In this document: piece after piece, positions 12,035-50,400 of the stretch
Layout: the number at the start of each line of letters is the position of its first letter
Position numbering within the stretch: the first letter of the stretch is position 1
DNA from: Turnera subulata
Taxonomy: Eukaryota > Streptophyta > Magnoliopsida > Malpighiales > Passifloraceae
DNA: 64,000 nt
Assembly: GCA_028386065.3 (NCBI GenBank)
Contig: JAKUCV010002262.1
Coordinates: 45,499 to 109,498, forward strand
Reading direction: 5' to 3'
Position numbers and translations under genes: made by a program
The notes under the pieces: model-generated
Told to the model about the DNA's origin: nothing
What the model saw: only the letters and a program-made list of their open reading frames with translations
Databases searched by the model: none

Positions 12035-15221
<3,187 letters not shown>

Positions 15222-27425: not shown

Positions 27426-27480
27426 TATTGGTAGAATAAAAATAAATGTAGAGAAAAAGGACTACCCGGCAGAAGAAACT

Positions 27481-29510: not shown

Positions 29511-29708
29511 TGTTATAAAACACGTGAGGTGAATGTCATTTGTATCCGACCTAACACCTAACACAGCACTCACCCCTCCTCCTCTTGTAATCTCTATAAA
29601 TAGCAATTCTCTGCTTAATGTATTTGCAGACCAAAATGAAGCAATAAAATGACGAGCTTATTCGTTACTTCTTCTTCTTCATTCTCCTTTATTAATAGTT
29701 TTACAACA
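29511..29708 (+). repeat. Left LTR of the copia-type element
   Basis: 198 bp, TG...CA ends, with TATAAATA at 29595-29602 and AATAAA near 29645 as likely promoter and polyadenylation signals. The CACGTGAGG near its start is a G-box-like motif. Confidence 0.95.
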
Positions 29709-29739
29709 CGTTATCAGCACGAGCTCTAACCCAGAGCAT

Positions 29740-30240
29740 GAAAAAAAAAGAACAAAACCAGTATCAAACCTCTACTGTTACTTTTTACCTTGATGAGCTC
29801 CGGGCCGCTGCTTGTCTCACCGCCGGCACCGGGCTCTTCCCCTCTCCGTTGCTGACTCAACAGCACTGTCCCCACCCATTGCCGCCGCCGGACGCGCCTC
29901 CCAGACGCAACGACCCAACGGCGGAACCCAACAACCCGACAGTCGCCGCTCCTGCACGCGACAGTCGCCGCTCCTGCCAATGCCGCGCCGCCTTCTTCTT
30001 CCCCTTGCCACTGTCGGCCGCTCACGCCCCGCGTCGTACCGCCGCCGTTGCTCCCATCGTCGGGCCGTGGCTAGAACCCGAGAGGGTCTCGGGTCGAAGC
30101 ACAACACCTCGCCGCCTTGTCGGTTTCCTCAGTCATCCATTGTCGCCTGCACAGCCGCGTCGTTCCTGCTCGTCGCCGCCTGCACCTCAAGTGGCGAGCT
30201 CGAGGTTGAAGACGACCCCGACCCGGAAGCGTGAACGGGT
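29740..30240. other. GC-rich leader of the copia-type element
   Basis: A CpG-rich block with repeated CAGTCGCCGCTCCTGC motifs. Long open frames exist in several frames at once, which reflects base composition. No gag-like or zinc-knuckle motif is seen, so I do not call a gene. Confidence 0.6.
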
Positions 30241-30539
30241 CGCGTGTTTGGGTCGGGTTTTTTTTTGAACTACTGTCTGAGCTAGGCCGGGCTGGGCTGG
30301 GCACTTGGGCTGGCCGGCATGGGCCTGAGTTGGTACTGTGCAGTGGGCTTGGGCCGACACTGTTCATGGCCCAGCCTGGATTTTTTAAAAAAAAAATCTA
30401 AAAAAAAACACAAACAGAAAAAAGGGGGGAAAACAATAGAAAAGAAAAAAAAGGGAAAAGAAAAGGAGAGAAAGAAAAAGAAAAAGAGAAAAAGATAAAA
30501 AAATTGAAAAAAAATGAGAAAGAGAAAAAAAAAAGAATT

Positions 30540-30870
30540 TATATTGCCGAAATTTAGTATCTCGGAATTTTCCCGGCAAGCCCGGAAGGCTGTTATACTT
30601 ATTTTGTGTTTGGCCGGAATCCGGCGATGAATAGTAAGCCCGGAAGGCCTTTGAAACCTCGGATTTTTCCCGGAAGGCCCGAAATTTAGTTTCTCGGATT
30701 TTTCCCGGCAAAGCCCGGAAGACCGTTATATAAGCCCGGAAGGCCTTTGAAACCTCGAATTTTTCCCGACAAAGCCCGGAAGACCGTTATATAAGCCCGG
30801 AAGGCCTTTGAAACCTCGGATTTTTTCCGGCAAAGCCCGGAAGACCTTTATATAAGCCCGGAAGGCCGTT
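30540..30870 (+). repeat. Tandem repeat of about 60 bp rich in AAGCCCGGAAGGCC
   Basis: The unit alternates AAGCCCGGAAGGCCTTTGAA with ACCTCGGATTTTTCCCGGCA and AAGCCCGGAAGACCGTTATA. Near-complete units start about 30638, 30733 and 30793, with degenerate ones before. A purine-rich AAAGAAAAAG tract precedes it (30400-30535). Confidence 0.85.
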
Positions 30871-32079
30871 ATATTTATTATATTTATTGGCTGGCTAAGC
30901 CGCCTTTATCGTATAAGCGTATTATATATGTTATTGCTGAAAGATTTATCGAGTAAGCATATTTTCTGTTTTTTTATTAAAATTCCGATTGGGCTACTAA
31001 AAGGGCTCATTATTCATTTAATGGCCGGCTAAGCTGCCTATTTCTTTATGTTTTAATTGGGCTCGTGTAAGGCCCATCGCATTTAATTTTCAGCAATTTC
31101 ATTTTAATTGGGCTATAATAGGGCCCATTGCCTTTCATTTTCTCGTCTTTAATTTTACTTATGGGCTCGTACTAGGCCCATTATTTTAATTTCCTGCCAT
31201 TTACTTTCCTTGGGGTAATTAATATAAGGCCCCTTGCTTATTTATTTTAATTAAGCATTTATATATTCAATTATGTTATTTGAATTTGAGGCTCTTAAAA
31301 TTTCCGGAAGAAATTTAAAATGGGCATTAAATGCGAAAATGCATTTAAATGAGAATAGTCTGCAAGACTAAATGTAAGAGTCCCGAAGACTCGGGAAACG
31401 AAAAAATACAACGAAGACTGGAAGTCTTACCGTTCAAAAGATCCTGAAGATCCTTCAAAGAAAAATCGAAAATAAACATTATTACCACCAGAAGATGGCA
31501 ATTATATGACCACCAGAAGGTGGATATTATACTTGCTTAACAATTCATTTTATATTCAATTTATTTTTATGTTCAGTTTAAATTATTACGCATTGCAATT
31601 TATTTTTATTTACTTTTCAGTACTTTATAATTGTTTCTTAGAATAATGCCTGAAGCATCAGTCTCGAAGACAATGCAAAATTGACATCCACAGGGGGAGA
31701 ATTATATGTTTGTGGATGTCAATATAACATATTATGACATTTCGAAATGAAAAAAATGATTAACACGCTCCAGAAGAGCATAAATTCGAATATGTTCCTG
31801 AAGAACGCATGTTTTAATATGATCTAGAAGATCGTATATTTACGCGAGTACAGACACCCCCAGTAATAAAATGAATTATTATGGATCCCAAATGAATTGA
31901 CTCAGATTTATTCCCTGAAGCGAATAAGACAATATAATTATTTGTGCCTGTGGGCGTAAATGAGATAATAAATGGAAAAGGCTCAAAGTAAACATGCATA
32001 TTATTATTGCAAAAACAGATCCATAACTGGAGAACATTCAAAGAAGAATGGTTCTCATACATATATTTAAACAAGTAAT

Positions 32080-32763
32080 CTATCGGTTGGGTTCAACATT
32101 AACCCTGAAACTCTGAGCCTCACCATTAATGTTGACCCTAACACTGTCGTTCCAGGAGAACCACATACCACCCTTGTTGTTTTCTCCAGGTATCTCAAAC
32201 CGATTCGTTGGAGGAAAACGAAGTGGAATCACACCATGATTCTCTCCTGCTTGCCACAAAGTCTCAGTAATCAGTACCATGTTAGGCTTGTACTGATTCT
32301 TCAGATCCCTTAAGGTACGCACAAAGTCTTGAGACTTTCTTGCTATACCCCTGCAATTCCACAATAAAAGTCGTACCTTAGGCCATGTAGGTGGTAACCC
32401 AGTCACCCTTGGGATGCTCCGAGCCATCATAGAAACATGATAATAACTGCTTTGATTTAAAATTTGACATGAAGGCTCTAGCTGAAATTCCTGCATCCTA
32501 GCAGATATAAAAAATATTATAGAGTTAGCTGAGCCATAAAAATTTGTCCTGAGATTGCCTTGGTCCTCCAGGAAGAAAGTTTCTTCCATTGGAGTCACAA
32601 AGAACCTAGACGAGTATAGCTCATCTATAAAAACCAAACGTGGGATTCTTGCTAGCTCATTAGGCAGTTCCTCTTGTTGTTCATTTACCATGCTATAGGC
32701 CAATCTATTTCTTCTACCTAGTGAGGCACCCTCAACAAAGAAAACAGTAGCTGGGGAAGGCAT
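32080..32763 (-). CDS. ORF-X1: antisense 227-residue protein with a half EEP domain, unknown function
   Basis: The frame is read opposite to its copia-type host. An in-frame ATG exists at 32859, but it overlaps a TATAAAA box (32859-32865). The ATG at 32763 (MPSP...) is preferred because it matches the start of ORF-X2 and follows an A-rich leader. The protein is exactly as long as ORF-X2 and about 163 of 227 residues are identical without gaps. Residues 1-125 (FFVEGASLGRRNRLAY, ELYSSRFFVTPMEETFFLED, FYGSANS) match no family I recognise. Residues about 130-220 resemble the first part of a LINE endonuclease: LLLWNCRG with the catalytic-type Asn, LITET with Glu, and GGMWFSWNDSVRVN. The later catalytic Asp and His segments are absent, so nuclease activity is unlikely. 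It is the only intact frame in an otherwise decayed element. Confidence 0.8.
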   Translation of the reverse strand: MPSPATVFFVEGASLGRRNRLAYSMVNEQQEELPNELARIPRLVFIDELYSSRFFVTPMEETFFLEDQGNLRTNFYGSANSIIFFISARMQEFQLEPSCQILNQSSYYHVSMMARSIPRVTGLPPTWPKVRLLLWNCRGIARKSQDFVRTLRDLKNQYKPNMVLITETLWQAGENHGVIPLRFPPTNRFEIPGENNKGGMWFSWNDSVRVNINGEAQSFRVNVEPNR

Positions 32764-32858
32764 TTTTGTCTTGGTTGAGTTTTTCTGTTTCTTTGCTTTG
32801 ATGAATTTTTCTATATCTATGAGTTTTCCTGTATCTTCCCATGTAATTCCTTCCCCCA

Positions 32859-32865
32859 TTTTATA
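32859..32865 (-). promoter_or_regulatory. TATA box of ORF-X1
   Basis: The minus strand reads GGCTATAAAATGGGGG. The box begins 102 bp before the ORF-X1 ATG. ORF-X2 has TATAAAAG 114 bp before its ATG. The predicted leader (about 32834-32764) is A/C-rich and nearly free of G runs. Confidence 0.55.
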
Positions 32866-33829
32866 GCCTGAGCATAGATAGCCAGGTGTCCCCGAAAAGA
32901 TCCAGAAGATTTTTCAGTGGATTATATTATTATTCAGAAAATTCCAAAGCTTTACAATCCTCGAGGATTTGCTTTTGGAAATGTCTGCCACTACATTAAT
33001 TATTGCTTAATAATTCTGATCCTTTCGACATGAGTGTCAAATATAAGCTTAAAATTGGTACACAACAGCCTGAAGCTGGTACCCATCAAAAGCTAGTAAA
33101 AAATAGCAGCCTGAAGCTGACACATATATACCAGCCTGAAGCTGGTACCAACTTAAAGTTGGTTTATTGGATTTATTTGGCATGACCGGTTGGGCCATCC
33201 CGGGTCAATAATGATGCACAAAATTTATTTGGTCATTCATTGAAAAACCAGAAGTTTTACAATCAATGAATTTCCATGTGTTTTGTTTGCTGCGAAATTA
33301 ATAATACGGCCATCCTATGATGAGATTGGCCTAGACCAGCAAATTTGGGAATAATTCTGGGATATGAACGCGGACTGATAGATCCGCTGTGTTGACCATC
33401 TAGGTAATTTTTACGATGCATCGACTAGATGGTCTATTGTGTGACACAAGTTGGCATTGTGCGCACTCGTTTTAATGATTAAGCCACTTGCAGGTACATA
33501 TCCCTACTTATGTTACTAGATTATATGTCTAGATTATGCTGGTATATTTCTTCAATGGATAATGTATATCATTGGAAATAAACCCAAACAGATCTGGGCC
33601 ATATTGACAATTGATTGCAGGACCATTGATGGAATATCATTGTTTGATAATTGGTATTTTATATGCAGCAACACTTGAGTGCATCAAGCCAACATTATAT
33701 GATCTCCCCATTTAATTGATTAATGGTCACATACTTAGTATCTCTCATCTTTGGACCATCGGTTATATAGTATAAAAATGCTCCACCACAGCATTGTTTT
33801 GTTAGTCCTTAAAGAATATTGAGAATATA

Positions 33830-35330
33830 TGTTGTGTATGTTGGGTATGTTAATTTGATGTTAGAGTTTACCCAACATAAGGGGGAGGAAAGAAGCAGCT
33901 GGATCAACAGATTAATCAAGAGATTATTGAAATGATTTATCAATATCTAGTTTTTGATCCTCGAATAAATTAGTATGAACCTGAAGTTCAAAAGATGATT
34001 CAGTTGCTGAAAAATTGATATGCAATTGCTAGACATATTTAAATTAAATGTGACCATATACCAGCTGCAAATGCTCCTGTTTCAATTAATGTTCCTGAAG
34101 AACAATATAAGTATGCAAATGAATCTATAGATTATTCTCGGTTCCAAAAAGAAAAGAAATTCTCAAAAGAGAAAAAGGAGCAAATGTGATAAGATGGCCC
34201 CAGTAAGAAAATATGGCCTCCAGTAGAGGTTTGAATTAAAAAGTTCCCCAGAAGAGGTTGATTCTCTGACACAAATTGATAAAGTTCCAGAAGTAACTCA
34301 GGTACCTGAAATAAGTGAATGTTATGAGATCTCAATTATAGTGTCAGAGATAAGATGGAACCGACATGAAATAACCGTCGACGGAATACAATTTTTATTT
34401 ACTTTACATAGCGCTAAAATGAGGATCATGAACCTACTAATGAATGTAGGTGTTGTATGATTGGGCAAAATAAAGAAATACGTTTAAGGCTGTGTTGGAC
34501 TCGCTCGAAGCGAGAAATATCCGGACCTGTAGTCCGTACACCAGAAGGTGTAAAATTCAATTGGTCATAAAATGGGAATTTGTGCGGAAAAATAATAAGT
34601 AATGAGATATAAAGCACGGTTTATGGCACAAAGTTTTACCCAAACGACCAGGTATTAATTATGAGGAGATATACTCCCCTGTGGTGGGTGCAATTACTTT
34701 TGTCTGGCAGTATATGAAAAGTATTAAAAATGCATCTAATGAATGCCATTACAGCCTATTATTATGGATCCATAAGTCATGATATATACATTAAGCTCCC
34801 TGAAGGATCCAAGTTGCCTGAAGCAACTAATTCCCGGGAAATTACAAAATAGAATTGAATTGATCTTTACATAATTAAATCATTTTGAGTATAGATAAAC
34901 TTATTTATGATTGGAACTCCCGAAGAAGCTTCCAAATACCGTGCTATTAGATTGGTCCTGGAGTACCCTGTTGAAGTGCAATATGTATTGCTAAGAAAAT
35001 AAAGCCTGAAGCTTTTGACTTAAGCCTATTGGCAAGATATGAGTTTGCTCTTATCTTCGGGGAATAAAAGACGTGGTGTCATGTTAATCCTATAAGCCCG
35101 AAGAAAGAAGAGTTGGTCCTTGCAGATGCCGATCCCCCACTTGATCCACATAAGGCACAGCCGGACATCTGCCACTACTTTACACATGAAATTGTTGCAT
35201 CATTGGGACTACAAAAGGCAAGATAGATGCTCTAACAAACAAATTACGAAGATAAAACAACCAACATTGTCTAGTTGGAGTAATGATGTATCAAAAGTGA
35301 TCAGACAAGGCCTACATCACCAGAAGTTGA
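33830..35330 (+). pseudogene. Degenerate copia pol remnants
   Basis: Short plus-strand islands recall Ty1/copia reverse transcriptase: LDSLEARNI...GPVVRTPEGV near 34500-34550, and an FTQ-PGI-NYEEIYSPVV-like stretch near 34630-34690, with many stops and frameshifts between them. The linker before it contains Pro-Glu coding (VPEATQVPE-like, 34290). None can yield a working polymerase. Confidence 0.75.
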
Positions 35331-35524
35331 CAAGAAAATTATTGGCATGCAACGACAACAAGAAATCAAGAGAGGCCAAAATGAGGGGGATTAGAATACG
35401 CACTGCACTCTTTTTTCCTTCACCAAGTTTTTATCCCACATAGTTTTTCTTGGTAAGGTTTTTAATGAGGCAGTTATTTCAAAAAGCGTATTCTACCCAA
35501 TACACAATAACATCCAAGAGGGAG

Positions 35525-35722
35525 TGTTATAAAACACGTGAGGTGAATGTCATTTGTATCCGACCTAACACCTAACACAGCACTCACCCCTCCTCCTCTT
35601 GTAATCTCTATAAATAGCAATTCTCTGCTTAATGTATTTGCAGACCAAAATGAAGCAATAAAATGACGAGCTTATTCGTTACTTCTTCTTCTTCATTCTC
35701 CTTTATTAATAGTTTTACAACA
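35525..35722 (+). repeat. Right LTR of the copia-type element
   Basis: Identical to the left LTR at 29511-29708 by direct reading, preceded by a purine tract and followed by the TCTCT target duplication. Confidence 0.95.
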
Positions 35723-35923
35723 TCTCTATGGTTTTCTCATATTATTTTTTGTGGTTGCAGTCAAGTGCCAAGAGTCAGCGGGAGCAAACCAAATATCATT
35801 AAGGAGAATAGACCAATCCTACCCTCTACTTCTCTCGGAACATCAGCATATTTTTCAAGGGGAGGTTCCCTCATCAGTAATTCTGCAATTTGGGCAACTT
35901 TGGCAGCTTTGACAATTTTCTAA

Positions 35924-36864
35924 ATTGTATAGGGCTATAGAAGAGCTACTGAATACTTTTCTCTTTTAATTCCCTTTTGATGTTGTAATGAAGTAGCAAA
36001 TCTTTTTCTTTTTTTGCAAACATAATAAAAAGTGATGTTACTATTGGAACGTAAGGGTAACTTATGGGGTATTAGCAATTTTAAAATTGTGTTTAAAATA
36101 GCTAATGACAACCATTTGTGATTGTACTTTTTCTCAATACTGATTTAGGCCATGACTGTTACTCTATTGTATTTAGGATTTAGGACTTGTATCGATGGGA
36201 CTTTGGATGAAGCGCATCTAGATTTCATACCATTTGACTAGAGGTAGAAAAAAAAAAAAACTTAAAATGTCCCACTTAAAACTTAAATCGCCCGACTATC
36301 TGTGGAGCAATTGTGTTAATAATATATCAACAATTTTTTTCGGTTGGTCCGTTTACTGATAACTTTGTTTTCATTATGCACAGCTAGCATTGTATTAGCT
36401 CGACAAGCTATATCTTGTCTCATTGTATGAGCTAAGTTGCCATGATGTACATTGATGTGTCCAATTAAATGCATGACTCATTGCGATGACTTGTTTGTGA
36501 CTAAGATTTTGAATAACATACATCAACTTTATGCTCCCAGTCCTGCCCTGATGAAAGTAATTCTGTGCGTCCAACAATGTTGAGCATGACTCAAAATCAT
36601 ATTTACGATTGGGGCATGAAGGAGCTAGTTGTTTCGATAAGTTGTTTGTTATAGATAGCTAGACACTTCTTAACTTCTGATTGAAATGGTGGTGTTACAC
36701 CTCAGTAACCAAACAAAACAAATCTCCACTTGGAAGTGAAGGATTGCTTCATTTTTTTTTATTGTTATTCAGCTTGGCACTTGTTTCATGTAAAACTAGC
36801 AGCAGAGAAGCCACCCCGGTGGTGTTTTGACTACCTTTAATTTCTTGAGAGTTTCGCGCAACAG
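35924..36864 (+). other. TLP-C 3' flank joined to an SCI1 relic lacking exon 4
   Basis: From about 36130 the sequence follows SCI1 intron 3 (19660-20490), including ATTTAGGA-TT, GGATGAAGC-CATCTAGATTTCATACC and TTGGCACTTTGTTTCATGTA-like blocks. At 36796 it jumps directly to the SCI1 3' UTR (TAGCAGCAGAGAAGCCACCCC). The end of intron 3 and all of exon 4 have been removed. It is a non-coding relic of the duplicated unit. Confidence 0.75.
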
Positions 36865-39590
36865 TTGTGCTGGCTATGTCCTGTAGGGAACTTTTTGCTC
36901 TCAACTCCTCCAGACACCGACCGTTACCTTCCATTTTTTTCCCGCCAAAATCTCCAAAACCAAAAACCCTTCTCCACAATCCCGTTGCCATGCACAGTCA
37001 CAGACATAGAAGAACAACCGAAAAGCAACAATACAAATTCAAATTATGGGAGCATTGTTTCCCTCTCAAACCACCCGAACCCCGAAATTTCCTGCTTTTA
37101 TCAAAAGGGTTTCTCCCAGATAACCAGAGAAGCTACTGGCAAGGCCTTACACGCGCTTTGCATCAAGGGTCTAGTCAATCTAGGTGTGCTATACAGTAAC
37201 ACTTTGATTACGATGTACTCAAAGTTTGGTCATATTGGTCTTGCTCGTTACGTGTTTGATAAAATGCGCGAGAGGCACGAGGCTTCTTGGAATAATATGA
37301 TGTCCGGGTTTGTTCGTGCGGAATTTTATGCAGAGGCGATTGCTTTCTTTAATGAGATGAGGGGCTTTGGCACTAAGCCTAGCGGATTTGCAGTTGCTAG
37401 CTTGGTAACCGCCTGTGATAGGTCAGGGTGTATGTTCGATGAAGGTGTCCAAGTGCATGGTTTTGTTCTGAAGTTTGGTCTACTGAGTGATGTTTTTGTG
37501 GGTACATCGCTGTTGCATTTCTATGGAGTTTATGGGTTTGCTTTGGATGCTGGGAAGCTGTTCGAGGAGATGCCTAACAAGAATGTTGTTTCTTGGACTG
37601 CATTAATGGTTTCCTATATGGATTATGGAGAACCAAGCACGGTACTGACTTTATATCGGTCTATGAGGCATGAAGGGGTGAGCTGTGATGAGAACACGTT
37701 GGCTACTGTGATCAGTTCCTGTGTGTCACTTGACAATGAACTGTTAGGGTCACCAAGTGATTGGACAAGTTATAAAATTTGGATTAGGAACTAATACTTC
37801 TGTGGCAAACTGTTCGGTATCTTTGTTCGGCAGTTTTGGTATAATGCAAGAGGTTGACAACACTTTCTATGGTATAAACGATCTTGACATAATCTCGTGG
37901 AACTCCTTGATTTGTGCAAACGTTCACAATGGTCTTTGTGAAGAATCACTGAGATGTTTTCATCAGATGCGCCATGTTTATGGGCAGACAAATTCTACCA
38001 CACTTTCAGCTTTGTTAGCTGGCTGTGGGTCTGCTGGTGATTTGAAGTGGGGAAGGGGACTTCATTCTTTAGTTCTGAAATTTGGCTTAGATTCTAATGT
38101 CTGTCTATGCAATACTCTTATAGGTATGTACTCTGACACAGGACAATTTAGGGATGCGGAATTGGTTTTCCAAGGAATGGCAGATAGGGATCTCATATCA
38201 TGGAATTCCATGCTTGCCTGTTATGCTCGATAGGGCAATTGCCAAGATGCTTTGAAAATTTTTGCTAGAATGTTCCATATCGATAAAACCGCAAACTACG
38301 AAACTTTTACAAGTGCATTGGCTGCGTGTTCAGATCCAGAATTTTTCGATGAAGGCAGGAGGGCTCATGCCCTCGCAATCCTTACTGGCCTACATGACAA
38401 TTTGATTGTCGCCAATGCATTGATCACCTTATATGCGAAGCTCGGTATGATGGGTGAAGCAAGAAAGATATTTCATAGGGTGCCCAAGGGAGACTTAGTA
38501 ACTTGTAATGCACTCATTGGTGGCAATGCAGATAACCAACAATCAGAAGCGGCACTAGAAGCCTTAAATTGATGAAAGAAGAATGTGTACCTACCAACTA
38601 CATTACACTGTCAAATGTTCTAGGTGCTTGTTTGGCTCCTGATGATCTGCTGACTGGTGGGATGCCCATCCATGCTTTTATAATTCGATCAGGGTTTGAA
38701 TCTGATGAACACGTCCTGAATTCACTTATCATGATGCATGCCAAGTGTGGTGATCTAAATTCAAGTAAATATCTTTGATGGGTTCAATATTAAGAGTGCT
38801 GTTGCATGGAACGTTATCATGGCTGCAAATTAATGCTCATCACGGTTGCATGGAGGCGGCTCTGAGACTTCTTTTGCAAATAAGCCGTGTATGAGTAGAT
38901 TTCGATCAGTTTAGCTTTTCTGAATGCATTGCTGCAACAGCTAAGTTGGCAATACTGGAGGAATGTCAGCAGCTTCATGCTTTGGCTATCAAACTTGGTT
39001 TTGACTCAAATTCTTTTGTTATGAATGCCACAATGGACATGTATGGAAAATGTGGAGAACTAGATGATGTATTAAGGATTATCCCACAACCAATTCAACG
39101 ATCGAGATTATCATGGAACATACTGATATCATCTTTTGCAAGGCATGGGTGCTTTGAGATGGGATCATATAAAAGAAAGAAGAAACCTGCTTGCAGTTGG
39201 GTGAAGTTGAATAACAGGTTGAGTTCGTCTGGAATGGGGGACCAGTCTCATCCACAGACCAGTAAGATATATGCAAAGTTAGAGGAGCTGAAGAAGATGA
39301 TCAAAGAGGTAGGTTTATTTCCCGATACAAGCTATGCCTTGGAAGATACAGATGACGAACAAAATGAACATAATCTTTGGAACCACAGTGAGAGACTTGC
39401 CCTTGCATATGGCCTAATCAATACTCCAGAAGGTTCAACAATAAAAGTTTTCAAGAACCTTCGTGTTTGTGGCGATTGCCATTCGGTTTATAAGTTTGTT
39501 AGTGGAATTCTTGGGCGGAAAATCATATTACGGGACCCTTATCGGTTTCACCATTTTCATGGTGGCAAGTGTTCCTGCTCTGACTATTAG
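36865..39590 (+). pseudogene. PPR-1: DYW-class pentatricopeptide repeat pseudogene
   Basis: The reading order matches a long intronless PPR-DYW protein, resembling Arabidopsis At1g16480 from memory (GKALHALCIKGLVNLGVLYSNTLI, then QVHGFVLKFGLLSDVFVGTS). Such proteins bind organelle transcripts and edit C to U. The first 300 codons are open. Breaks seen: an extra base near 37748, TAG at 38231-38233, a lost T near 38566, a deletion near 38766, a 4-base insertion near 38830, TGA near 38893, and loss of about 380 bp near 39155 covering the last repeats and part of the E region. The DYW domain is otherwise present (HSERLALAYGL, CGDCHSVYKF), but the final Trp codon is TAG (CSCSDY, stop). The copy cannot be functional. 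Confidence 0.92.
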
Positions 39591-39737
39591 TAATGAAGTA
39601 TTACGGGACCCTTACCTGTTGCTTATCGAGCCTTGCTTTCCGATACCGAGACTTGTTCGATGTCCCTAGTATTTATTTTATATAAGTCTTTCCATATTGT
39701 TTCCCTTTATGAAAGTTTTGATTGTTAGTATTATTAC

Positions 39738-39771
<34 letters not shown>

Positions 39772-40150
39772 ATTACTCTTGCTAGTATTATTGTTATTAT
39801 TATTAGTATCATTATTATTGTTATTATGTTTCCAAGATATTATTTACCTATATTATAATAATTTACTAATTAAAATTAAAAATTAAATCTATCCTTCTCC
39901 CATTAGATGTGTTTTTGAAGTTAAATTTGAAATTTATTGATATTTTTTAGTTTATAAAGAGTTTTCCTAAATTATATTTTGTTTAAAGTAAAAAAATTAT
40001 GTTTGTGTATAAAACACAAAATCCGTAGTCGTTTTATCCAATACGACGTAGTTTTAGCCAAGCTCAAGCATAAAACACAAGTGATGTTGCGTTTTGACCA
40101 AAGAAGGATATGAGTTGACTGAATTTTTAGACCTCTGAAACGACGTCGTT
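39591..40150 (+). other. PPR-1 downstream region with an ATT microsatellite
   Basis: An (ATT)n tract with a few interruptions spans about 39729-39830. The rest is AT-rich, with two ACGACGT-GTTTT motifs near 40043 and 40140. No gene seen. Confidence 0.7.
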
Positions 40151-41069
40151 TTCTGAGTTGGCAAGGTTCCCCATCTTTCCCTCTTCTTTTTCTCTGTTTT
40201 TTTAATTTTATTCTCTCCCTTGCTCCTCTTTTTCTCCCCACCGGTCCTTTCCCCTCCCCTTTATTTTCTGTCTTTTCTTTCTCCTTGTCTTCTTCTTTTT
40301 CTCCCTTCGTCTTCTTCCCTATCTGCTCTCTCTCTCTCAATCATCTTCTTCAAAATTTCCTCCTCTGCCCATCTCTTCCTCTCCCTATGTCTCTGTTCCA
40401 TACTTTTCCTCTCTCCTCTCCCCTCCACCATCAATGAATCCCTCTGTCAATCTCTCTAAGCCGCCGCCGTTCGTTCTTCTCTCTCCCCCTCATTCTCGCG
40501 TGCGTCGGATTTGAAGAGCGAAGGATGGGCCGATGGTGTGACAAACTCCAGCGAAGGGAGCAAGAACCAGTCCCGATCGAACCAAGGCTTGACCAGATGG
40601 CATCGGAGATAGGGTCGAATAGACCCCCCACGCCACCATACCGATTGCAGGATTCGTGTGGATTGATGGTGTTTGGCTGAACGATGGGTTGACGGTGTAT
40701 CTTTGTGTGGGCAGTAGTCAGAGGTGTGATGTTGGTAGTGGGTACGGGTCTTGGTTATGGTTTTTCCCAATGAGCTTGTTGGGTTGGTGTTTCAGTAGTG
40801 AGCAGTTGATGTGATGATGATGTGATGACGATGGTGGGTTGTTGTTGCAGATTATGGCCGGAGTTGGGTGGATTGGCCTCTACAGTTGGGTGTTGTGTGG
40901 ATAGCGATTCAGCGGAGAAGTTGTTGTATGTCACGCGATGACATACTGTTTGTGCAGTACCTGGACGGAATCCGGCAAGAACCCCGGCAAGAACCCGAGC
41001 GTTTTCCTTCGAGGCTCGGAAATAATCTGGCCGAGGCAGAATCCAATGAATGGAGAAATTGGGTAAGTC
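40151..41069 (+). mobile_element. Probable diverged long-LTR fragment, left of the insertion
   Basis: A CT-rich block (40165-40500) is followed by GC-rich sequence and a CGGAATCCGGCAAGAACCCC motif near 40970. The same layout is seen on the minus strand of the LTR at 43600-44700. The sequence continues at 54612 (GGACTCGGAAACACGGG, ACGGACTCGTTAATG), so the 13.5-kb element landed inside an older related LTR. The borders of the older LTR were not found. Confidence 0.45.
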
Positions 41070-44000
41070 TGAGACGCCCCGACCCGTATTTACCGTACAC
41101 AGTAAACACGTGCCGGAACTGTGACAACCCGACCCAACAAAGCCCAAGCATACAGTGTGAACTACAATAACTCGGCCCAACGGCCCAAAATAGTAAAACA
41201 ACATAAACAATAAATCCCGGCCCAATGGCCCAATAACATTAACAATATGCACAGCGGAAGACTTAAACTCACTAACACTGTATGCGACACATGCAATCTA
41301 TGGATCCAAGCCTGTCCAAGGGAAACGCTGCAGCCTGTCTGGAATGCACCAAGCCTGTACAACAACATCTCATCCTACGGGATGAAACCCCGCAGGCGAG
41401 GGGTGAGTCCGAAACGCTCACCGACGAAAGATAAACAGTGATATATTCAACCATAACACTTTCGAGGTAAACACAACAATCAAATCAAATGAATCCATAA
41501 CAAACAACATAACAGTGGATTACAACTCAAGCAACACAACAGAGGAATTCATCGCAAACAACACGACAGAGGATTCTCACCCAATCATATCAAGCTCAAC
41601 CAATCACATCACAAGTAAATTACCCTAACAACTATATCAAGACCGATGGATGCTTAATTATTTTTTATTTCCAATTTTATCTTCCGGGCCCCGTCACTGG
41701 ACAAGCTAGGGTCGTACCTGGTTATTAACTAATTCTGGATGCCAGGCCCCACCATAATCCGGGATCAACATCCCCATATCTCAAATCCGGGATCAACATC
41801 CCAATATCTCAAATCCGGGGTCAACACCCCAATATCTCAAATCTGGGGTCGACACCCCAACCAACAAACCCTCTGGCAAGACACCACAGAACTAGTCTCT
41901 AACCATCTAGTCGTACCACTACTTTCCAAGTGACAATTACATCATCTCATAATCAAATCCATTTCCATTTCCAATACTCTTTGTTCTTTCCTCAATTATC
42001 CACATAGACCATAGACCAGTTCATCATTATTCTCTACATAGTATCACAAATCCATTATCACAGACTAACATCATCAATGATAACCACAGCAGTCAAACTG
42101 CCAGCAATCAACATCTCAGCAGTTCAATCAAGCTCACAACAACAACATCATAGCAATCAATCAACCAGCAGTATTCATTCCAGCAGTTCCATCGAACAGT
42201 AAAAATACACAAACAACAAAAATGCACACACAGCATTACGGGCACATATCAAGGTTTATCCATCCTCACCTGGTATGTCTCTGAAACTGCTATCCGGTCA
42301 ACCCTCGTTACCCTATATGTACATTTAGGAACACAATAATCACTCATAATGCGCATCCAAAGATAGTTATGCATGATGCCGGTTTAATTGTATTTAGTCG
42401 GCTTGCCTTATCCAATTTCTTTATTATGAAATTATCCTCTTTATTCACTATACCATTTATACTTAATTTCAAATTAAAACCGAAACCGAGTTTCCTATCG
42501 ATATTCTAATTATTCTTAATTTTTAAGTTAAAACCAAAACCGAACGTTCAAGCCGATATCCCGACCCATTAGTCACTTAAGATAAGAGAATATATAAATA
42601 CGTTGTACAAATTATCTGGCAGAAATTATATTTGTAAATAGATCAATTTACGGCCCGTATATTACTTCGTACTTTATTTAACAATAAGAAATAAATAATA
42701 CTTATAAATAACATACCCGACGGTAAGACCGTAAAATAGAAAATACCATCGGTATTAAGTTAACATAGCTGGTACATGGTGTAAATATAATTTTAGCATA
42801 ACGTTGTAGAAACTTATATTTATAATTACGTAAAACTATTATAATCGATAACCATATGCTCGGCAAGTGTATTATTAATACAATAACTCATTTAATAATT
42901 TAATAGGGTAAAACCCATACATATCATAATTAGTATAGCTTATAATGATTAAATAGATAAATATATACGGCATAATGTAACGAATGTTTAATATCTATCA
43001 TCACAGCAATACGATTATTACGTTAAAACGTAAAACTATTATAATCGATAACCATATGCTCGGCAAGTGTATTATTAATACAATAACTCATTTAATAATT
43101 TAATAGGGTAAAACCCATACATATCATAATTAGTATAGCTTATAATGATTAAATAGATAAATATATACGGCATAATGTAACGAATGTTTAATATCTATCA
43201 TCACAGCAATACGATTATTACGTTAATAATTCACATCTTGTATATAATAATACTTAAAATGTTGAGCACTAGACCCATCAGAAGGTGTAGTAAATCGGCC
43301 AATTGTGTAGGAATTATAAAATAATTTATGCGGGTTATATACATTGGATTTTAGTGTACTTAGGTAAATTCGAAAATAATTATCGTTCTTGATCCATAAT
43401 TTAAATCGTTATCCGCTTAATTATATATTACATCTCAGTTAAACTTATCCCACGGTTTCGTTATTAGGTCCGTTAAATGCGTGTATGTCACGGTATGATG
43501 GGCCTCCGCACGTTCGGCCCGTTTCCGAGTCCGTGTGCAACCGAGCCCAAACCCGAGCGCATAGGAGTTTAAACGAGTCCAAGGAATTACCCAAGGTCCG
43601 TTTCCGGGCTTGCCGGAAAAATCCCGAGAACTCGCCGGAATAGACCCGAGACTCGCCGGAAACTCGCCGGATTCCGGCAACCACTATTCACGGCAGCAGC
43701 ATACCCTCCTTGTTACTGTTCACGCTCCCAAAACACCCAAAATACATAGCATCACCGTTGAGCCCAGCAGCAACACGTCGTATCCACAACAAGCAGAATC
43801 CCTCAACAATCAATCAATTCAACCGGGTTAGTCACAACCCAATCAATACCAAATTCAATTCCTATGCTAACCAACCCAACACATGAAGGCAGAGGCATGG
43901 ATTTCTTACCATTGAAACCCACCGGCGGCGCACCTACAGCAGGAGGAGAGGGAAGGTTCGGTGCGTGACACACGAGGGAGAGAGGGAGTGCGACGGCGAC

Positions 44001-45036
44001 GGATCGGAGGAAGGGTGGCAGAGGCGACTTCGTCGGCTCTCTTCGTCTGGACAGCGGCGCGGTGGCTGCTGGTCACGGAGTCGGTGCTGTGCGCGGAGGA
44101 GGAGAAGAGACCCGATCTCCTAGCACGGCAGCGCTCATGGTTGCAGTGGCTGCGGATAGAGGAAGGGGGAAAGGTCTGACGGCGGCGCGTCAGAGGGAGA
44201 GGAGGAGGAGAACAGGAAGGTGGGGGAAGGACGGTGGTGTCGGGTCGGTGGCTCACAGGTGGTTGGTGGCGGCTTCGCAGTGAAGGAGGAGGAAGAAGGA
44301 GACTAGATGATGATGATGGCGGCAGAGAAGGGAGAGGCAGGTGGAAAGAGTTGGAGAGGAAGAGAGGTGTTGATGACGAAGATGGTAGAGAGAGAGAGAT
44401 GAGAGGAATCGGCAGAGGGAGGGGAAATAATGGAGATGGTAAGGAAGAAGACAAAGAAGAAAAAGTGAGGAAGAGATGGGAGAGGGGCCAACAATTTCAC
44501 GGGAGAAATAAGGAGGCCGGCGGCTGGGAGGAAAAGAGAAGGAGAAAAGAAAAGAAAAGAAAGGAGAAAAGAAAGGAAGGGAAAGAAAGGAAAGAAGAGA
44601 GGAAAAGTGGGGCCCGCGGCTGAAGGAAAACCCGGGAGAGAGAAAAGAAACGTTGCCGGGAAAGAGGAAGAGAATGGAAAGAGAAGAAGAAGAGTGGCCT
44701 CGGGCAACCACATTCGGCCAGTCTGGATTCTCGAGTCGGAATCCCGTAAATGCAGGGATACTCCCGTCTTTCCGACAAATCCCGTCCCGAGTCCAAAAAT
44801 ACAACTTGGGCTCGGAAAATTCGATTAATCCTCCTGAACGTCGTCCAAGTCTCGGAACTGAAAACCGAGGCTCGGTTAGTTAGGAAGACACTCCCGAGCG
44901 CGGGAAAATTCTCGGTTTCGAAAAACGACTACCGATTTACCTCGAATTAATTACCCGAGATTACTTCAACAGTAAATCACGGTAAAACAATTTCTACAGT
45001 CCCGGTAAAAATCCATATTTTACCCGGGCTGTTACA
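41070..45036 (-). repeat. 3' LTR of the large element
   Basis: The LTR is 3967 bp. It differs from the other LTR by scattered single-base changes and a few small indels, plus an extra 200-bp tandem copy at 42831-43230. Long open frames in the purine/pyrimidine-rich section 43900-44800 occur on both strands and are compositional. Confidence 0.93.
42831..43230. repeat. 200-bp tandem duplication present in one LTR only
   Basis: TAAAACTATTATAATCGATA starts at 42831 and again at 43031, and the two 200-bp units are practically identical. The partner LTR has a single unit (52631 onward). The duplication therefore arose after or during this insertion. Confidence 0.93.
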
Positions 45037-45180
45037 GTCTACCCACCTTAAAAAGAATTTCGTCCCCGAAATTCCGTCTTATCCGTGGGTCCTACCACGA
45101 TAAGCTTCTGGCACACTCTGTCAGGTGTCCAACCTCAACATGAGATACCGCTTATACCCTTAAGCGACATCTCTTCCGCT

Positions 45181-45188
45181 TATAAATA
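45181..45188 (+). promoter_or_regulatory. TATA box for the antisense ORF-A
   Basis: TATAAATA lies 145 bp inside the 3' LTR boundary and 42 bp before the ATG of ORF-A, pointing away from the LTR, antisense to the element. Confidence 0.5.
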
Positions 45189-45222
45189 CCAAACCTCACA
45201 GCTGAGACATTCACTCTCAGCC

Positions 45223-45600
45223 ATGGACTCTCCACTTCGTTCTCGTATGACTTCAGACTCCGAGAACAACAGCTACATCGGCGGCACAGCTTTCCCAACA
45301 AGCTCCGATGAAGAGCCTCCGAAGAAGCGGTTCAAGACCAACATCATCGGTCTGGAGGAGCACATGGTGGTCTCCCCAAAGCGACGGAAGAAACGTGCTG
45401 TCAAGAAGGCTGGAGACAAGAAAGGAAAGGCGGTTGCTGAGAGCAGCACTCCGCAACAGAAGTTGACGCAGCTGAACGTCTCGTTGAGGAAGATCAGCTC
45501 GGCGGTGGCACAAATTGAACTGGCATGCGCGGAGCTGTTCCCGCACTTAAGGAACGTCCAACAGCTTGTAAAGGACCTTGAGAAGCAAGTAGCTCCTTAG
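45223..45600 (+). CDS. ORF-A: antisense basic protein with NLS-like stretch, unknown function
   Basis: The frame could start at 45085, but the ATG at 45223 (AGCCATGGAC, good context, just downstream of a TATA box) is preferred, giving 125 residues. The N-terminal part is Ser/acidic-rich with PPKKRFK. A strongly basic SPKRRKKRAVKKAGDKKGK stretch at about residues 51-69 resembles a nuclear localisation signal. The C-terminal 45 residues have heptad-like leucines and end in VKDLEKQVAP, suggesting a short coiled coil. AAATAAATAAAATAAA at about 45633 gives polyadenylation signals. I recognise no family. It lies antisense just inside the 3' LTR, a position reminiscent of antisense genes of some retroviruses; this comparison is inference only. 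Confidence 0.55.
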   Translation: MDSPLRSRMTSDSENNSYIGGTAFPTSSDEEPPKKRFKTNIIGLEEHMVVSPKRRKKRAVKKAGDKKGKAVAESSTPQQKLTQLNVSLRKISSAVAQIELACAELFPHLRNVQQLVKDLEKQVAP

Positions 45601-46333
45601 AGCACTTCTTCTCTGTTGTAACACCTTTATGAAATAAATAAAATAAAATTTCCTTTTTAAATCAAAATTCTCTTATGTTAAGAAATCTTGTGTTAAATAG
45701 GAAAACAAAACATGTCAAGGCAGATTAAAATCAACCATAAGATTATAAAATCAAATATAAAGGAATCAAAAATTAAAACTCAGTTAACAAAATCAAAACA
45801 GAAAGAAATTAAAACAAAATATATTTCCATGAACGGCGTTTGTATCGGACGTGAACATCCTCGATTCATGAAACGTACCGTACAACTAACGGTGACGTCG
45901 ATTAACCTCGTGAAAAAGATACCCGTTAACTCGGAAAGCGATAATCACGGGATCGTCCTGTGTCCCTCGAAGGAAACGATACCCACTTGCTCACATTTTC
46001 CGCATAAGACAAAACGTCTGTCAAGGCTCGTATCTCTCCACGATGTTCGAACAGCTGTGAGCTTGTCGCACATGCGCTCTACTCGAGATACGGCCCCATC
46101 CGTCTAGCCTCAACGGTCACGGATGCTTGTGATAAAAGATGCAAGAAAAGTTATTAAGACCATAGGAAGAAAAGACAAGGTAGCCAGAGCGAAGGAAATC
46201 AAGAGATGTAAAAAGACTGAAAAACTCTGGCACGGTAATCCGAAAAACGCATAAAGCAATAAATGCAAAGCAACGGTAAATTCAAAAACAAAATCTTGAA
46301 AATCAAAAACGGTAATCACGCTCCCCATAAGAG
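45601..46333. other. Internal region between ORF-A and ORF-X2
   Basis: A 131-codon plus-strand frame (45712-46107) lacks TATA, good start context and any similarity in the other carrier element, so it is not called. The minus strand shows no recognisable gag or pol motif. Confidence 0.5.
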
Positions 46334-46340
46334 TATAAAA
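46334..46340 (+). promoter_or_regulatory. TATA box of ORF-X2
   Basis: GAGTATAAAAGAGAG is a near-ideal plant TATA box 114 bp before the ORF-X2 ATG. The predicted leader (about 46365-46447) is a run of CAA/ACA/AAC words with almost no G, similar to translation-enhancing CAA-rich leaders. An upstream ATG at 46352 would lie before the predicted transcript start. Confidence 0.6.
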
Positions 46341-46447
46341 GAGAGAGTGGTGATGAGTAAATTATTAAAAGCATTAGAAGCAACAAACACTCAAGCAAAC
46401 AAAACCACAAAACTCCGAAAAACCAAACACAAACACGTCCCAACACA

Positions 46448-47131
46448 ATGCCTGCTCCTTCATCCGTCTTCTTCGTCGAAGGTGCCAATTTTGGCAGAAG
46501 GAACCGACTGGCTTACAACATGGTCAATGAGCGTGCTGAGGAACTACCGAACGAGCTCGGCAGAATGCCACGTCTAGTTTTCGTCGACGAGCTCTACTCC
46601 TCAAGATTCTTCGTCACTCCCATGGAAGAGGTGTTCTTCCTAGAGGACCATGGGACACTGAGGACTTCCTACTACGGCTCAGCAAATTCCGTGATGTTCT
46701 TCATCTCGGATAGACTTCAAGAGTTCAACCTGGAGTCCACTTGCCAGATTGTGGAGCAAGGTGCTTACTACCAGCTCGCAATGACAGCCCAGAGCATACC
46801 CAGAATGACTCGGCTACCTCCAACCTGGCCAAAGGTACGGCTACTGGTGTGGAACTACAGAGGAGTGGCAAGGCGTGCACAGGAGTTCTCACGCACCTTG
46901 AGGGACTTAAAGAACCAGTACAAGCCCAACATGGTTCTTCTGACGGAGACGCAATGGCAACCACGGGACGATCACGGTCTGATTCCACTCCGATTCCCAC
47001 AAGCTAACCGGTTCGAGATTCCTGGCCAGCGTGACAGAGGCGGCATGTGGCTTTCTTGGAGCGACAGAGTCACGGTCAACGTCAACAGTGACGCAAACAG
47101 CTTCCGTGTCAACGTCGTTGCGAACCGTTAA
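46448..47131 (+). CDS. ORF-X2: antisense 227-residue protein with a half EEP domain, unknown function
   Basis: The frame starts MPAPSSVFFVEG and ends in RVNVVANR before TAA, without interruption. It is collinear with ORF-X1 over its full length. The best conserved segments are GRRNRLAY, DELYSSRFFVTPMEE, LPPTWPKVRLL, RTLRDLKNQYKPNMVL and NRFEIPG. The endonuclease-like part has WNYRG where ORF-X1 and LINEs have WNCRG, but the Asn and the Glu of LTET are kept. Nucleotide differences between the two copies are largely at third positions in the part compared, so protein sequence appears selected. It lies opposite to the strand of its carrier and has its own TATA box. Its role is unknown; it might be a nucleic-acid-binding accessory or regulator of element expression. 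Confidence 0.82.
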   Translation: MPAPSSVFFVEGANFGRRNRLAYNMVNERAEELPNELGRMPRLVFVDELYSSRFFVTPMEEVFFLEDHGTLRTSYYGSANSVMFFISDRLQEFNLESTCQIVEQGAYYQLAMTAQSIPRMTRLPPTWPKVRLLVWNYRGVARRAQEFSRTLRDLKNQYKPNMVLLTETQWQPRDDHGLIPLRFPQANRFEIPGQRDRGGMWLSWSDRVTVNVNSDANSFRVNVVANR

Positions 47132-47457
47132 TTGTATTTTCCTTTTTATATAATATCAAAAATCCATGTATTATTTCCCCTTTTTATAAATTATTAATGT
47201 AATATTTCTATTCGCAATCAATATATTAATATTTCCCTTTGTATCAAAATATTAGCAATATTTATAATATTTGTATTTCGCATATTTAGCATCATTACCT
47301 CTTATGTGTATGTTCCGCGACAGCTGGCGTCCCTCGACTGGATCCATAATGCACTAACTAAGTGATGTAAAATAATAAAATGGAGCGAACTATGCAAACA
47401 AGACAACAACACACATAGACTGCCCGGCAAGACCTAACGCCCGCTCCGCTACCAAAA
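47132..47457. other. End of internal region, with candidate primer binding site
   Basis: AT-rich 3' flank of ORF-X2 with repeated TAATATTT words. On the minus strand TTGGTAGCGGAGC directly follows the 5' LTR (near 47442-47456) and is the likely primer site; I could not assign the tRNA. Confidence 0.5.
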
Positions 47458-50400
47458 TGAGACGCCCCGACCCGTATTTACCGTACACAGTAAACACGTG
47501 CCGGAACTGTGACAACCCGACCCAACAAAGCCCAAGCATACAGTGTGAACTACAATAACTCGGCCCAACGGCCCAAAATAGTAAAACAACATAAACAATA
47601 AATCCCGGCCCAATGGCCCAATAACATTAACAATATGCACAGCGGAAGACTTAAACTCACTAACACTGTATGCGACACATGCAATCTATGGATCCAAGCC
47701 TGCCCAAGGGAAACGCTGCAGCCTGTCTGGAATGCACCAAGCCTGTTGTGGAAGCCCGTACCCCAATTAAATAAAAATAAAATTATTAAATGAAAAAGAG
47801 TTACCAAAATACTCTTGAAACCCGGGGTACAAAAACCGATGCTTCGGCATACAAACATTTTCCATGAAAATGTATAAACAACGAGATGTCATAAAAATAA
47901 ACGAGATCAACCGGCTTAACAAATATTAAGCCATCACGGCATCATGCCGACATAATATCACAAATCATCTCCGGCTAACTGCCGATATAAAGATAAAACA
48001 TTTATGACATCTCGAATTATTCATCATGCAGCGGAAGATAAAATAATAATCAAATCAGTGTAGAAAAATGACATGCATATGGCCCTATGGATCCCACCAA
48101 GAGATAATGCACAACTACCTGCTGAAGTGACTGCGTCTGATCTCCGAGTCGAAGGTATAAGTGAGTCTGCACGCTAACTAAAGTCTGAAAAACAACGGTG
48201 GCGATTATGTGAGTCGCCTACTCAGTGAACATTAAAAGTCTAAATATACATGAAAGTGAAGTCATGCTCGTAGGGTGAGTAGCTCACGAGCACAAGTACA
48301 GCATACAAGCAAATCAGAATCACACACCATCACATAAATGTTTTATTGTATTATAGCTCGTATTGTTTGAGCTCAATGCGTTATCTTATTGTTATCATTA
48401 TTATTATTTTTATTATTATGGGCCCTCTACTGTGAGTCAAGTCTCGGTAGCGCATCTGATCAGATCAGGGTGTGAAACCCAAATGTCGAACCTCAGAAGG
48501 GGTAGATTCTGAGGCCAAAAACCACTGATAAATCTCAAGTGGCCGCTAGCTACCTGAGGGTGCACTCAGACACACCTAACCGGTGCAAGTCTTCCAGGGG
48601 TGCACCTACATCCCCTGGGCATGCTAAACAGCATAATGTGACCCGAGGTACCCAACCCTCCTCGGGGCTACCAACCGACATCACAGTAGAATTTAGTATT
48701 TTATTCTTAATTAAACCTTTATATTTCTGTTTGAAGTACATTATGTCTTTCAGGGAAGTGTGTATGTGTCCCTGTATCATCCGGGCCTTCGGCCCATAAC
48801 CACATATTATCACAAAAGTGTATTACATAGTATATAACAGTTTTTCATGTAGAATTTAGACATGTAAGTCAATCAAGCATACAATTCCAATTATCGCATG
48901 TAGCAAACAAGGCAAGTAAACAAACAAACCACACCAACATGCATTCACAAAACATATATAAAAAGACTTGTAATGTCACCTCAAAATGCGGTTTATGACT
49001 TCTCCCCGATCCGAGTCTACGGCTCTCGAGATATCTCCCGTACCTGAATACCGGTACATAATATAATCACTAAGCTAATTTTAGAAGTAAAAACGTGCAT
49101 GTATGCTAAAGGTACGTTCTTATCGAGTAACTCCCGTCCCTAACTATCAAATCGTAAGATTTCCGGGCCTAAGTCCAAAAGGATATTTTCTTCTTCATAA
49201 CTCCAACAATTAAGGATCTAAGGTTCGTCGGTTTAAGTTCGTTAACAATTCTCGGGCCTAAGGCCCACTAAATCCTTAATCACAAATTCCGGGCCTGTGG
49301 GCCCACCTTCTTACGTCCATAATTTTACCGATTATGAAATTGGGCTTCGAGCCCGTTCTTAACATCCGTGAGTTTAGTTTCCCGTGATTAAGTCCTAAGT
49401 CCGTATTTTAGGTCCAATTAAATATCCTAAGCTTCAAATTGAAATTATTGGGCCTGGGCTCGGTTTTTCCTAAAACCGTCCTAAAGTCGTTTCCGAGCCC
49501 AAGAGTTGATCGGCCTAAAGTTCTATTCGTGTCGGTAAATTCTCCCGGCCACACACTCTTTTCTCTCCGCTCTCGGGAATCCACAATTCACCAAATATAT
49601 CAATGTAAATATGTTTCGGTAAATAAAATTCCATAATTTAATTACATGGTATAACCGAGATAAATCTTAGACAATTACCGTCTAACACTCGTAAAAACGA
49701 GAATTCTCGTCCGCCGGCAGAGCCCGAGCCTTCGCCGGAAAAGTCCCCGAGCCCTCGCCGGAACAGTGCCCGCTCGCCGGATTCCGGTCACTCTCGCCGG
49801 AACAGTAACCCGACACCCCAAAGAACCGCAACTGTAACCTGGAAGGAACCCACAACAAGCTGCCAAACCCCAAAACCAACAACTCACATCCCATTCTTTG
49901 AATTTCATATGCACAAATGACGAAATAGATTGAGAACTACAAGGGGTCACCGGAATACTCACCGGAAAACGAATCCGCAGAACCTGATGCCGGATCCAAG
50001 CCCCAGAGTCTCAATAGTGTCAACCAAACACGCACGCACACACTACCGGATCCCCCCCCACAACAGCAACCTTCAAACCCGCGCCGGCCAGCACTCAAAT
50101 CCGGCCATGCCTCATCAGACCCGCCACGCAAACCACTGGACACGAGCACCTCAAATACACACACCCCTGCCACAAAAACACAACTCCTACCTACCGCCAG
50201 ACGCAGCCTCGCCAGCCAGCCCCGCAACCACCATCCAAACACAATCACCTCCACAAAGAACCAATCAAACACGACTTGACTAAAGCACGAGAAGACAAGC
50301 AGAAAAGCGAGAGTCATTGGCGGCTTACCCGGTGAGAGGTGGCGGCAGAGCAACAGCAGTGTTCCTCAAACGCGTCGTGTTTTAGGCCCCTCACTCACGA

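Follow-up and report, generated by a model that had tools for sequence, protein, structure and literature searches.

An antisense gene under strong selection in copia-type and probably gypsy-type LTR retrotransposons of Turnera subulata

A 64,000-nt stretch of Turnera subulata contig JAKUCV010002262.1 (referred to here as the window; all window coordinates are positions within it) contains two copies of a 227-residue open reading frame (ORF), ORF-X, each lying antisense within a young long terminal repeat (LTR) retrotransposon of a different type. At least three carrier types hold ORF-X in this genome, namely, a copia lineage that has open pol frames (taken together with relatives that bear gag), a copia-derived family with short LTRs, and a family with large LTRs that is probably of gypsy type. 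ORF-X is antisense wherever orientation can be read, and selection on its protein is strong. We consider it fairly probable that LTR retrotransposons have in ORF-X a genuine antisense accessory gene, one that has been exchanged between carriers and that probably counters silencing of, or otherwise protects, its own element.

Two copies of ORF-X in two unlike carriers

ORF-X copy 1 (X1) lies at 32080-32763 on the minus strand and copy 2 (X2) at 46448-47131 on the plus strand, each spanning 684 bases including the stop codon. The initial annotation had described two uninterrupted frames that align without gaps, share about 163 of 227 residues, and run antisense to their carriers. BLASTP bore this out, with 163/227 residues identical, 198/227 similar, and 0 gaps, and the orientation of both LTR elements agreed with the antisense placement. 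The DNA of the two copies is 68.3% identical, with 49, 23, and 144 differences at codon positions 1, 2, and 3, respectively; the nonsynonymous rate (dN) is ~0.17 by the NG86 method, while the synonymous rate (dS) reaches saturation under NG86 and is estimated at 2.9 by a maximum-likelihood method. The carriers align well only over ~669 bp around ORF-X, and the remaining matches between them are short and repeat-like. When sequences were evolved neutrally in silico to an equal divergence, only 0.115% of 20,000 runs preserved an open frame; the mean protein identity was 42% and the maximum 55% (2,000 runs), compared with the 72% observed.

Carrier 1 is a 6.2-kb, copia-derived, non-autonomous element on the plus strand (29511-35722), bounded by the target site duplication (TSD) TCTCT and by two identical 198-bp LTRs (5' LTR, 29511-29708; 3' LTR, 35525-35722). 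It carries a primer-binding site (PBS)-like sequence, CGTTATCAGCACGA, and a purine tract, both of which are common to its relatives. Decayed copia reverse transcriptase and RNase H remnants occupy 34606-35223 of the plus strand; read with X at stops, the sequence matched RVT_2 at E = 0.018, short of the cut-off, and both this match and the motifs present point to Ty1/copia. The stop-free pieces alone gave no Pfam match. A 61-bp unit is repeated in three tandem copies at 30693-30875.

LTR pairs were found at 15 of 20 fetched loci resembling X1. All 15 of these loci hold ORF-X in antisense and have a purine-rich tract ahead of TGTTAT, and 13 have a PBS like CGTTATCAGCACGA (one base is changed in two of these). 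The longest frame beginning with ATG is antisense in every one of the 15, measuring 227 to 259 residues in 12 of them, 203 residues in L023 (which fits ORF-X read from residue 25), and 134 and 112 residues in L027 and L028, two copies with stops. On the sense strand of these 15 copies, no frame longer than 197 codons was found. Carrier 1 thus belongs to a copia-derived family with short LTRs, and neither gag nor pol is present in the examined copies.

Carrier 2 is a large-LTR, non-autonomous element on the minus strand (41070-54606), with the TSD AAGTC. Comparison of the LTR pair placed its 3' LTR at 41070-45036 and its 5' LTR at 47458-54606, the latter split by a 3.4-kb, solo-LTR-like insert (47747-51153; strand not assigned) that has its own TSD, CCTGT. 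The LTR pieces differ by 24 substitutions over 3,737 compared sites and by 230 gap columns, most of which reflect one 200-bp tandem duplication (42828-43226) present in the left LTR only; tandem 28-bp units also lie within the LTRs, at 41756-41860 and 51556-51660. Carrier 2 was read as a minus-strand element because, on that strand, a purine-rich tract leads into the left LTR and the right LTR is exited with TTTTGGTAGCGGAGC. No pol-like frame was found in the 2.4-kb internal part (45037-47457) among its stop-free pieces, four of which were scanned without a pol match. Carrier 2 is probably Ty3/gypsy-type, given that its polypurine tract (PPT)-like and PBS-like ends are, we assume, of gypsy type. 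The earlier description of a gypsy-type, minus-strand carrier thus holds for the strand and for the LTR structure, while the class depends on these end motifs, there being no pol.

All other coding capacity in both carriers had also been described as dead or absent. This is the case for carrier 1, but carrier 2 holds a second conserved antisense gene, ORF-Y (45223-45600, plus strand; 125 amino acids). Among 12 loci resembling X2, picked without use of ORF-Y, all 12 hold full-length ORF-X (one with a stop), and ORF-Y is open in 11, where it measures 125 to 128 residues from its ATG; the 12th locus has a shortened internal part. The dN/dS of ORF-Y is 0.165 (66 pairs, 12 sequences). By eye, ORF-Y has a serine-rich start, basic stretches resembling nuclear localization signals, and a possible coiled coil; it matched no Pfam family above the cut-off.

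Distribution, third carrier type, and selection

The 518.7-Mb assembly from which the window comes was searched with both ORF-X proteins. The best 150 rows of the X1 search were at least 93% identical to X1, and the best 150 of the X2 search at least 96% identical to X2. A ten-residue ORF-X motif written in degenerate codons gave 1,255 + 1,240 = 2,495 matches, compared with 2 + 4 = 6 for the reversed control, and this count is a lower bound because copies with a changed motif escape it. At least nine sub-families, most of them 63 to 81% identical to one another, were present among 20 loci hand-picked for unlike codons from the listed motif places. The frameshift-free copies among these 20 encode 227 residues (228 in L054). 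Frames of 1,307 and 1,559 codons around two copies of X2 were considered as a fusion protein and rejected, since they correspond to runs of N in the assembly. On the basis of 150-bp flanks, 6 of the 20 loci resemble carrier 1, 4 resemble carrier 2, 1 is unassigned, and 9 are of the type represented by three loci that we probed further, a count that includes the three probed loci themselves and some loci resembling them by matches of only 47 to 95 bp.

The three probes, each the 1 kb downstream of ORF-X, were taken from L045, L061, and L046, a group that is presumably SIRE-like. The L045 probe contains an open 280-residue copia pol end running in the opposite direction (RVT_2, E = 0.0025, below the cut-off), and the L061 and L046 probes contain a gag-type zinc knuckle facing ORF-X (zf-CCHC, E = 0.019 and 0.015, also below the cut-off). 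Because the knuckle lies only ~0.5 kb (L061) or ~0.8 kb (L046) from ORF-X, a distance too short to accommodate it, pol is missing at these two loci. The flanks of these two loci (L061/L064 and L046/L065) carry repeated CATCGATGTT words.

A genome search with the pol end returned 138 scored rows, the L045 copy lying within an open 1,021-codon frame. When these rows were set against the best 150 ORF-X rows, 20 convergent pairs were obtained with gaps of 282 to 373 bp, and no same-strand pair; no other ORF-X among the best 150 lay within 8 kb of any pol row. Each of the 20 pairs involves one of the 71 pol rows that are at least 93% identical, and the other 67 pol rows contribute none. The pol frame is stop-free over 1,009 to 1,027 codons in 10 of the 20 pairs, in 9 of which ORF-X is stop-free as well, and C179 is one further pair. 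ORF-X therefore sits downstream of pol and faces its end in this pol-bearing copia lineage. The initial annotation had proposed an accessory gene common to copia-type and gypsy-type non-autonomous elements; the sharing (with the gypsy class probable) and the antisense placement stand, but ORF-X also occurs beside open pol frames. Nor are the copies confined to one element lineage, given that at least three carrier types were found in the searched genome.

Codon-based analysis gave a dN/dS of 0.104 for ORF-X in short-LTR copia copies (171 pairs, 19 sequences, excluding L023 and L024 on account of their length; stops are present in L027 and L028) and 0.025 in gypsy-type copies (78 pairs, 13 sequences), where the two wrong frames gave 3.2 and 4.9 (78 pairs each). 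For L057, a copy picked by motif only, comparison with X2 gave a dN of 0.024 and a dS of 0.805, and over 91 pairs from 14 sequences the mean proportions of nonsynonymous and synonymous differences were 0.145 and 0.741, with a highest ratio of 0.271. Identity to carrier 1 is 94 to 98.5% over ORF-X versus 78 to 93% elsewhere (200-bp windows, at least 18 copies). That selection maintains ORF-X, as the initial annotation had proposed, is upheld by within-family ratios of 0.025 to 0.10, far below 1.

These ratios bear on a rival explanation in which the antisense RNA matters, through double-stranded RNA or regulation of the sense transcript, and the protein frame is incidental. A review reports the proposal that small interfering RNA production draws on antisense transcripts of plant LTR elements (Vicient and Casacuberta 2020, PMC7264820), and the DNA just past the ORF-X stop is also conserved. 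However, synonymous sites are free to change while the protein stays constant, the wrong-frame ratios exceed 3, and the two window copies align over 227 codons with 0 gaps. We regard this explanation as very improbable.

The window copies also have a TATAAAA box upstream of the start codon, 102 bp upstream in copy 1 (32859-32865, minus strand) and 114 bp upstream in copy 2 (46334-46340, plus strand). Of 54 ORF-X copies, 40 have a TATAWA box at a nearly constant distance (85 to 130 bp) ahead of the start codon; Markov controls averaged 2.2 such copies and never exceeded 6. The box recurs across ORF-X families whose flanks align poorly. These boxes suggest that ORF-X may have a promoter of its own, with transcription running opposite to that of the LTR.

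Origin, history, and likely role of ORF-X

At the sequence level, ORF-X residues ~130 to 227 resemble the first half of a LINE (long interspersed nuclear element)-type endonuclease. In copy 1, BLASTP and a Pfam match to a relative place the region of similarity to the endonuclease/exonuclease/phosphatase domain at residues ~129 to 227 (32083-32379, minus strand). Residues 133 to 213 match the endonuclease of the window's own LINE (E = 2e-8 and 3e-8; single pairs, BLASTP), and in L045, ORF-X residues 134 to 222 match positions 2 to 95 of the 225-position PF03372 (Exo_endo_phos) profile (E = 1.3e-4). The WN and the E of "TET", which we take to be active-site positions of the endonuclease, are kept in the ORF-X alignment rows that cover them. 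Of the hallmarks of LINE ORF2, a complete endonuclease and a reverse transcriptase, ORF-X has only a half domain at its C-terminal end. Since half of the fold is missing, ORF-X is probably not an endonuclease. A circular permutation of the endonuclease was weighed by eye and dropped. The window LINE (23345-28852, minus strand) combines a DUF4283 frame with frames for an endonuclease and for a reverse transcriptase/RNase H, the last of 1,198 codons.

No match was found for residues 1 to 128, and the similarity to a LINE covers the last ~100 of 227 residues rather than the full length; nor was a full-length match to a host gene found among the best-scoring rows listed. No ORF-X relative was detected among 5.8 billion protein sequences, whose plant content was unchecked (of the 66 and 452 candidates obtained, not one passed at E = 0.001 or at E = 10), or in a PDB sequence search, and none of 45 stretches of viral contigs was confirmed.

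A protein tree of 27 rows unites the short-LTR copia copies in a single group (95/97) and the gypsy-type copies in another (100/100). The third-type rows require three changes (at least two by the starred branches) and never formed one group in 200 bootstrap trees. Because the tree places the short-LTR and gypsy-type groups among third-type copies, ORF-X must have passed from one carrier type to another at least twice. The pol-bearing third type is a likelier source of ORF-X than a host gene captured twice, the direction of transfer being inferred. Of the two earlier suggestions, that the gene was shared between element types or captured twice, sharing is retained; double capture is less likely, given that the two families seen initially are single groups among third-type copies.

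A related alternative is that a host gene family was captured separately by each retrotransposon lineage and that selection acted in the host gene. ORF-X is intron-free and has a promoter-like box, and its oldest divergence is saturated at synonymous sites, as this alternative would allow. On the other hand, the low dN/dS among copies inside each element family implies that selection acts within the elements, all 15 LTR-bounded copies hold ORF-X antisense in the same region, and all 20 pol-linked pairs are convergent with one spacing. We consider separate host capture improbable, the search for a host gene outside elements having reached no further than the best-scoring rows listed.

The reading that we prefer, an antisense accessory gene serving its own element, would work as follows. 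ORF-X would be transcribed opposite to the LTR transcript, from its own promoter, to yield a small, probably nucleic acid-binding, non-catalytic protein. Given that copies without gag or pol retain ORF-X, this protein would act for the element encoding it, most likely by countering host silencing of, or by protecting, that element's DNA or RNA; an autonomous partner would supply the gag and pol proteins. At least two moves of ORF-X from one carrier type to another would have occurred, for which template switching between co-packaged RNAs is the simplest route; its likely reservoir is the copia lineage that bears pol.

The initial annotation had suggested that ORF-X perhaps aids mobilization or silencing control. 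In ranking the possible functions, we favor defense against silencing, followed by a role as a mobilization helper. In the latter case, ORF-X would aid packaging or mobilization of elements lacking gag and pol that use the particles of an autonomous partner, and would not act on silencing. Two ORF-X families lack gag and pol in the examined copies, yet many copies are recent (LTRs 97.8 to 100% identical in 11 of 15 short-LTR relatives), and the partner-like copia lineage has ORF-X beside an open pol frame. A helper role leaves unexplained, however, why the pol-bearing lineage retains ORF-X and how one helper could serve both copia and gypsy-type machineries, which package separately. This role appears rather unlikely to us, less so than host capture.

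Several observations weigh against the accessory-gene reading or limit its support. Regarding the product, the PF03372 match in L045 scored 22.2 bits, under the 24.5 cut-off, that in L061 was weak (E = 0.1), and P0001, P0002, and L054 had no PF03372 match, nor does ORF-X copy 1; AlphaFold models of ORF-X were unusable (mean predicted local distance difference test scores of 31.2 and 38.6). Analogy is the ground for proposing an anti-silencing role, which is a guess. Many copies are dead: stops occur in 26/150, 4/150, and 32/150 of the best ORF-X rows in the X1 search, the X2 search, and the search set against the pol rows, respectively, and the 20 diverse-motif loci comprise 6 intact copies, 7 with stops, 5 with frameshifts or indels, and 2 cut by N runs. 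Among the best 150 ORF-X rows, which are centered on one sub-family, there is no partner for 51 of the 71 close pol rows or for any of the 67 distant ones, and carrier 2 has no pol. Choosing the X1 and X2 copies for their protein similarity depresses dN and exaggerates the conserved island, a bias that motif-picked rows cure in part. Moreover, the sequence past the ORF-X stop (31760-32079) is also 91 to 97% identical (60-bp windows), and one 60-bp window within ORF-X drops to 91%. Lastly, the TATA and tree counts were drawn from related copies, so that the 40 boxes are not 40 independent events, and the tree lacks an outgroup and has weak deep forks (41/48, 68/93).

A fuller version of the accessory-gene reading can be put forward more tentatively, with chances somewhat short of even. 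ORF-X would be a LINE-derived antisense gene that is selected at the level of the retrotransposon, has become partly detached from any one lineage, has moved between copia-type and gypsy-type elements, and, because its product defends the element that encodes it, suffices for elements without gag or pol to persist in very many copies.

Elsewhere in the window, a thaumatin-like gene has its nearest solved structures in 2ahn and 3zs3, which we believe to be cherry and apple proteins. Two inverted segment duplications were also seen, 36879-39162 versus 60136-62401 (94% identical; with PPR-like frames, identified by eye, and thaumatin-like frames repeated nearby) and 11871-13723 versus 56635-58517 (90% identical).

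Comparison with known antisense and shared accessory genes

Plant antisense ORFs (aORFs) are described as lying antisense to gag-pol, as having their own promoter in Grande, as being present in most copies, and as having no known function (PMC7264820, PMC11963269). ORF-X is like the plant Tat aORFs in its antisense orientation to gag-pol (20/20 pol-linked pairs; 15/15 LTR-bounded copies judged by the purine tract, 13 of them also by the PBS). The aORF-3R class sits between pol and the 3' LTR; ORF-X is downstream of pol in the copia lineage but precedes the reverse transcriptase remnants in carrier 1, has no pol beside it in carrier 2, and faces a gag zinc knuckle at L061 and L046. The aORFs are conserved in most copies of a family; ORF-X is conserved in the best 150 X1 rows and the best 150 X2 rows (26 and 4 with stops) and in 12 of 12 X2 loci, all of them chosen by ORF-X, and 51 of the 71 close pol rows have no ORF-X among the best 150 rows set against them. 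ORF-X differs from the known aORFs in having copia and probably gypsy-type hosts and in being half LINE-type endonuclease-like, while the review reports known aORFs to be without similarity to other transposable elements (PMC7264820). Transposase_28 (PF04195), the hallmark of Retand TRP28, was not matched among the ORF-X Pfam hits. Relative to the ORF2 endonuclease of plant L1-type LINEs, whose domain start matches residues ~130 to 227, ORF-X ends mid-domain and is without a reverse transcriptase.

The survey of extra ORFs (eORFs) in plant LTR elements includes a reverse-oriented category and eORFs in both copia and gypsy elements, in 45 and 314 groups, respectively (Neumann et al. 2019, PMC6317226). 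The survey threshold was at least 250 codons, so the 227-residue ORF-X falls below it (PMC6317226). Carrier 2 minus its insert, at ~10 kb, was likened by length only to HODOR, described in the excerpts seen as a high-copy, 9,716-bp LTR element of apple that is also found in pear; those excerpts mention no antisense genes (PMC6901071, PMC13334179, PMC8558331).

The closest parallel for the sharing of ORF-X is ORF3 of bdelloid rotifers, where retroelement lineages that are unrelated have accessory ORF types in common, a pattern read as gene sharing (Rodriguez et al. 2017, PMC5408684). That system differs in belonging to rotifers rather than plants and in encoding enzymes, a GDSL esterase and a DEDDy exonuclease (PMC5408684). 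What antisense genes do in plant LTR retrotransposons is, according to the review, still an open question (PMC7264820). ORF-X is found in unlike carriers, some of which keep nothing else, which would allow its effect to be tested without confounding by gag or pol. It offers a traceable gene exchange between LTR lineages and a case of a LINE fragment made part of an accessory gene, suggesting that jumping genes share an accessory gene. ORF-X itself was not found described in the literature searched, as far as the accessible portions of those sources go. Plant LTR elements were already known to have antisense accessory ORFs, and rotifer retroelements to share ORFs; an antisense gene common to copia-type and probably gypsy-type plant elements is a new form of these known kinds.

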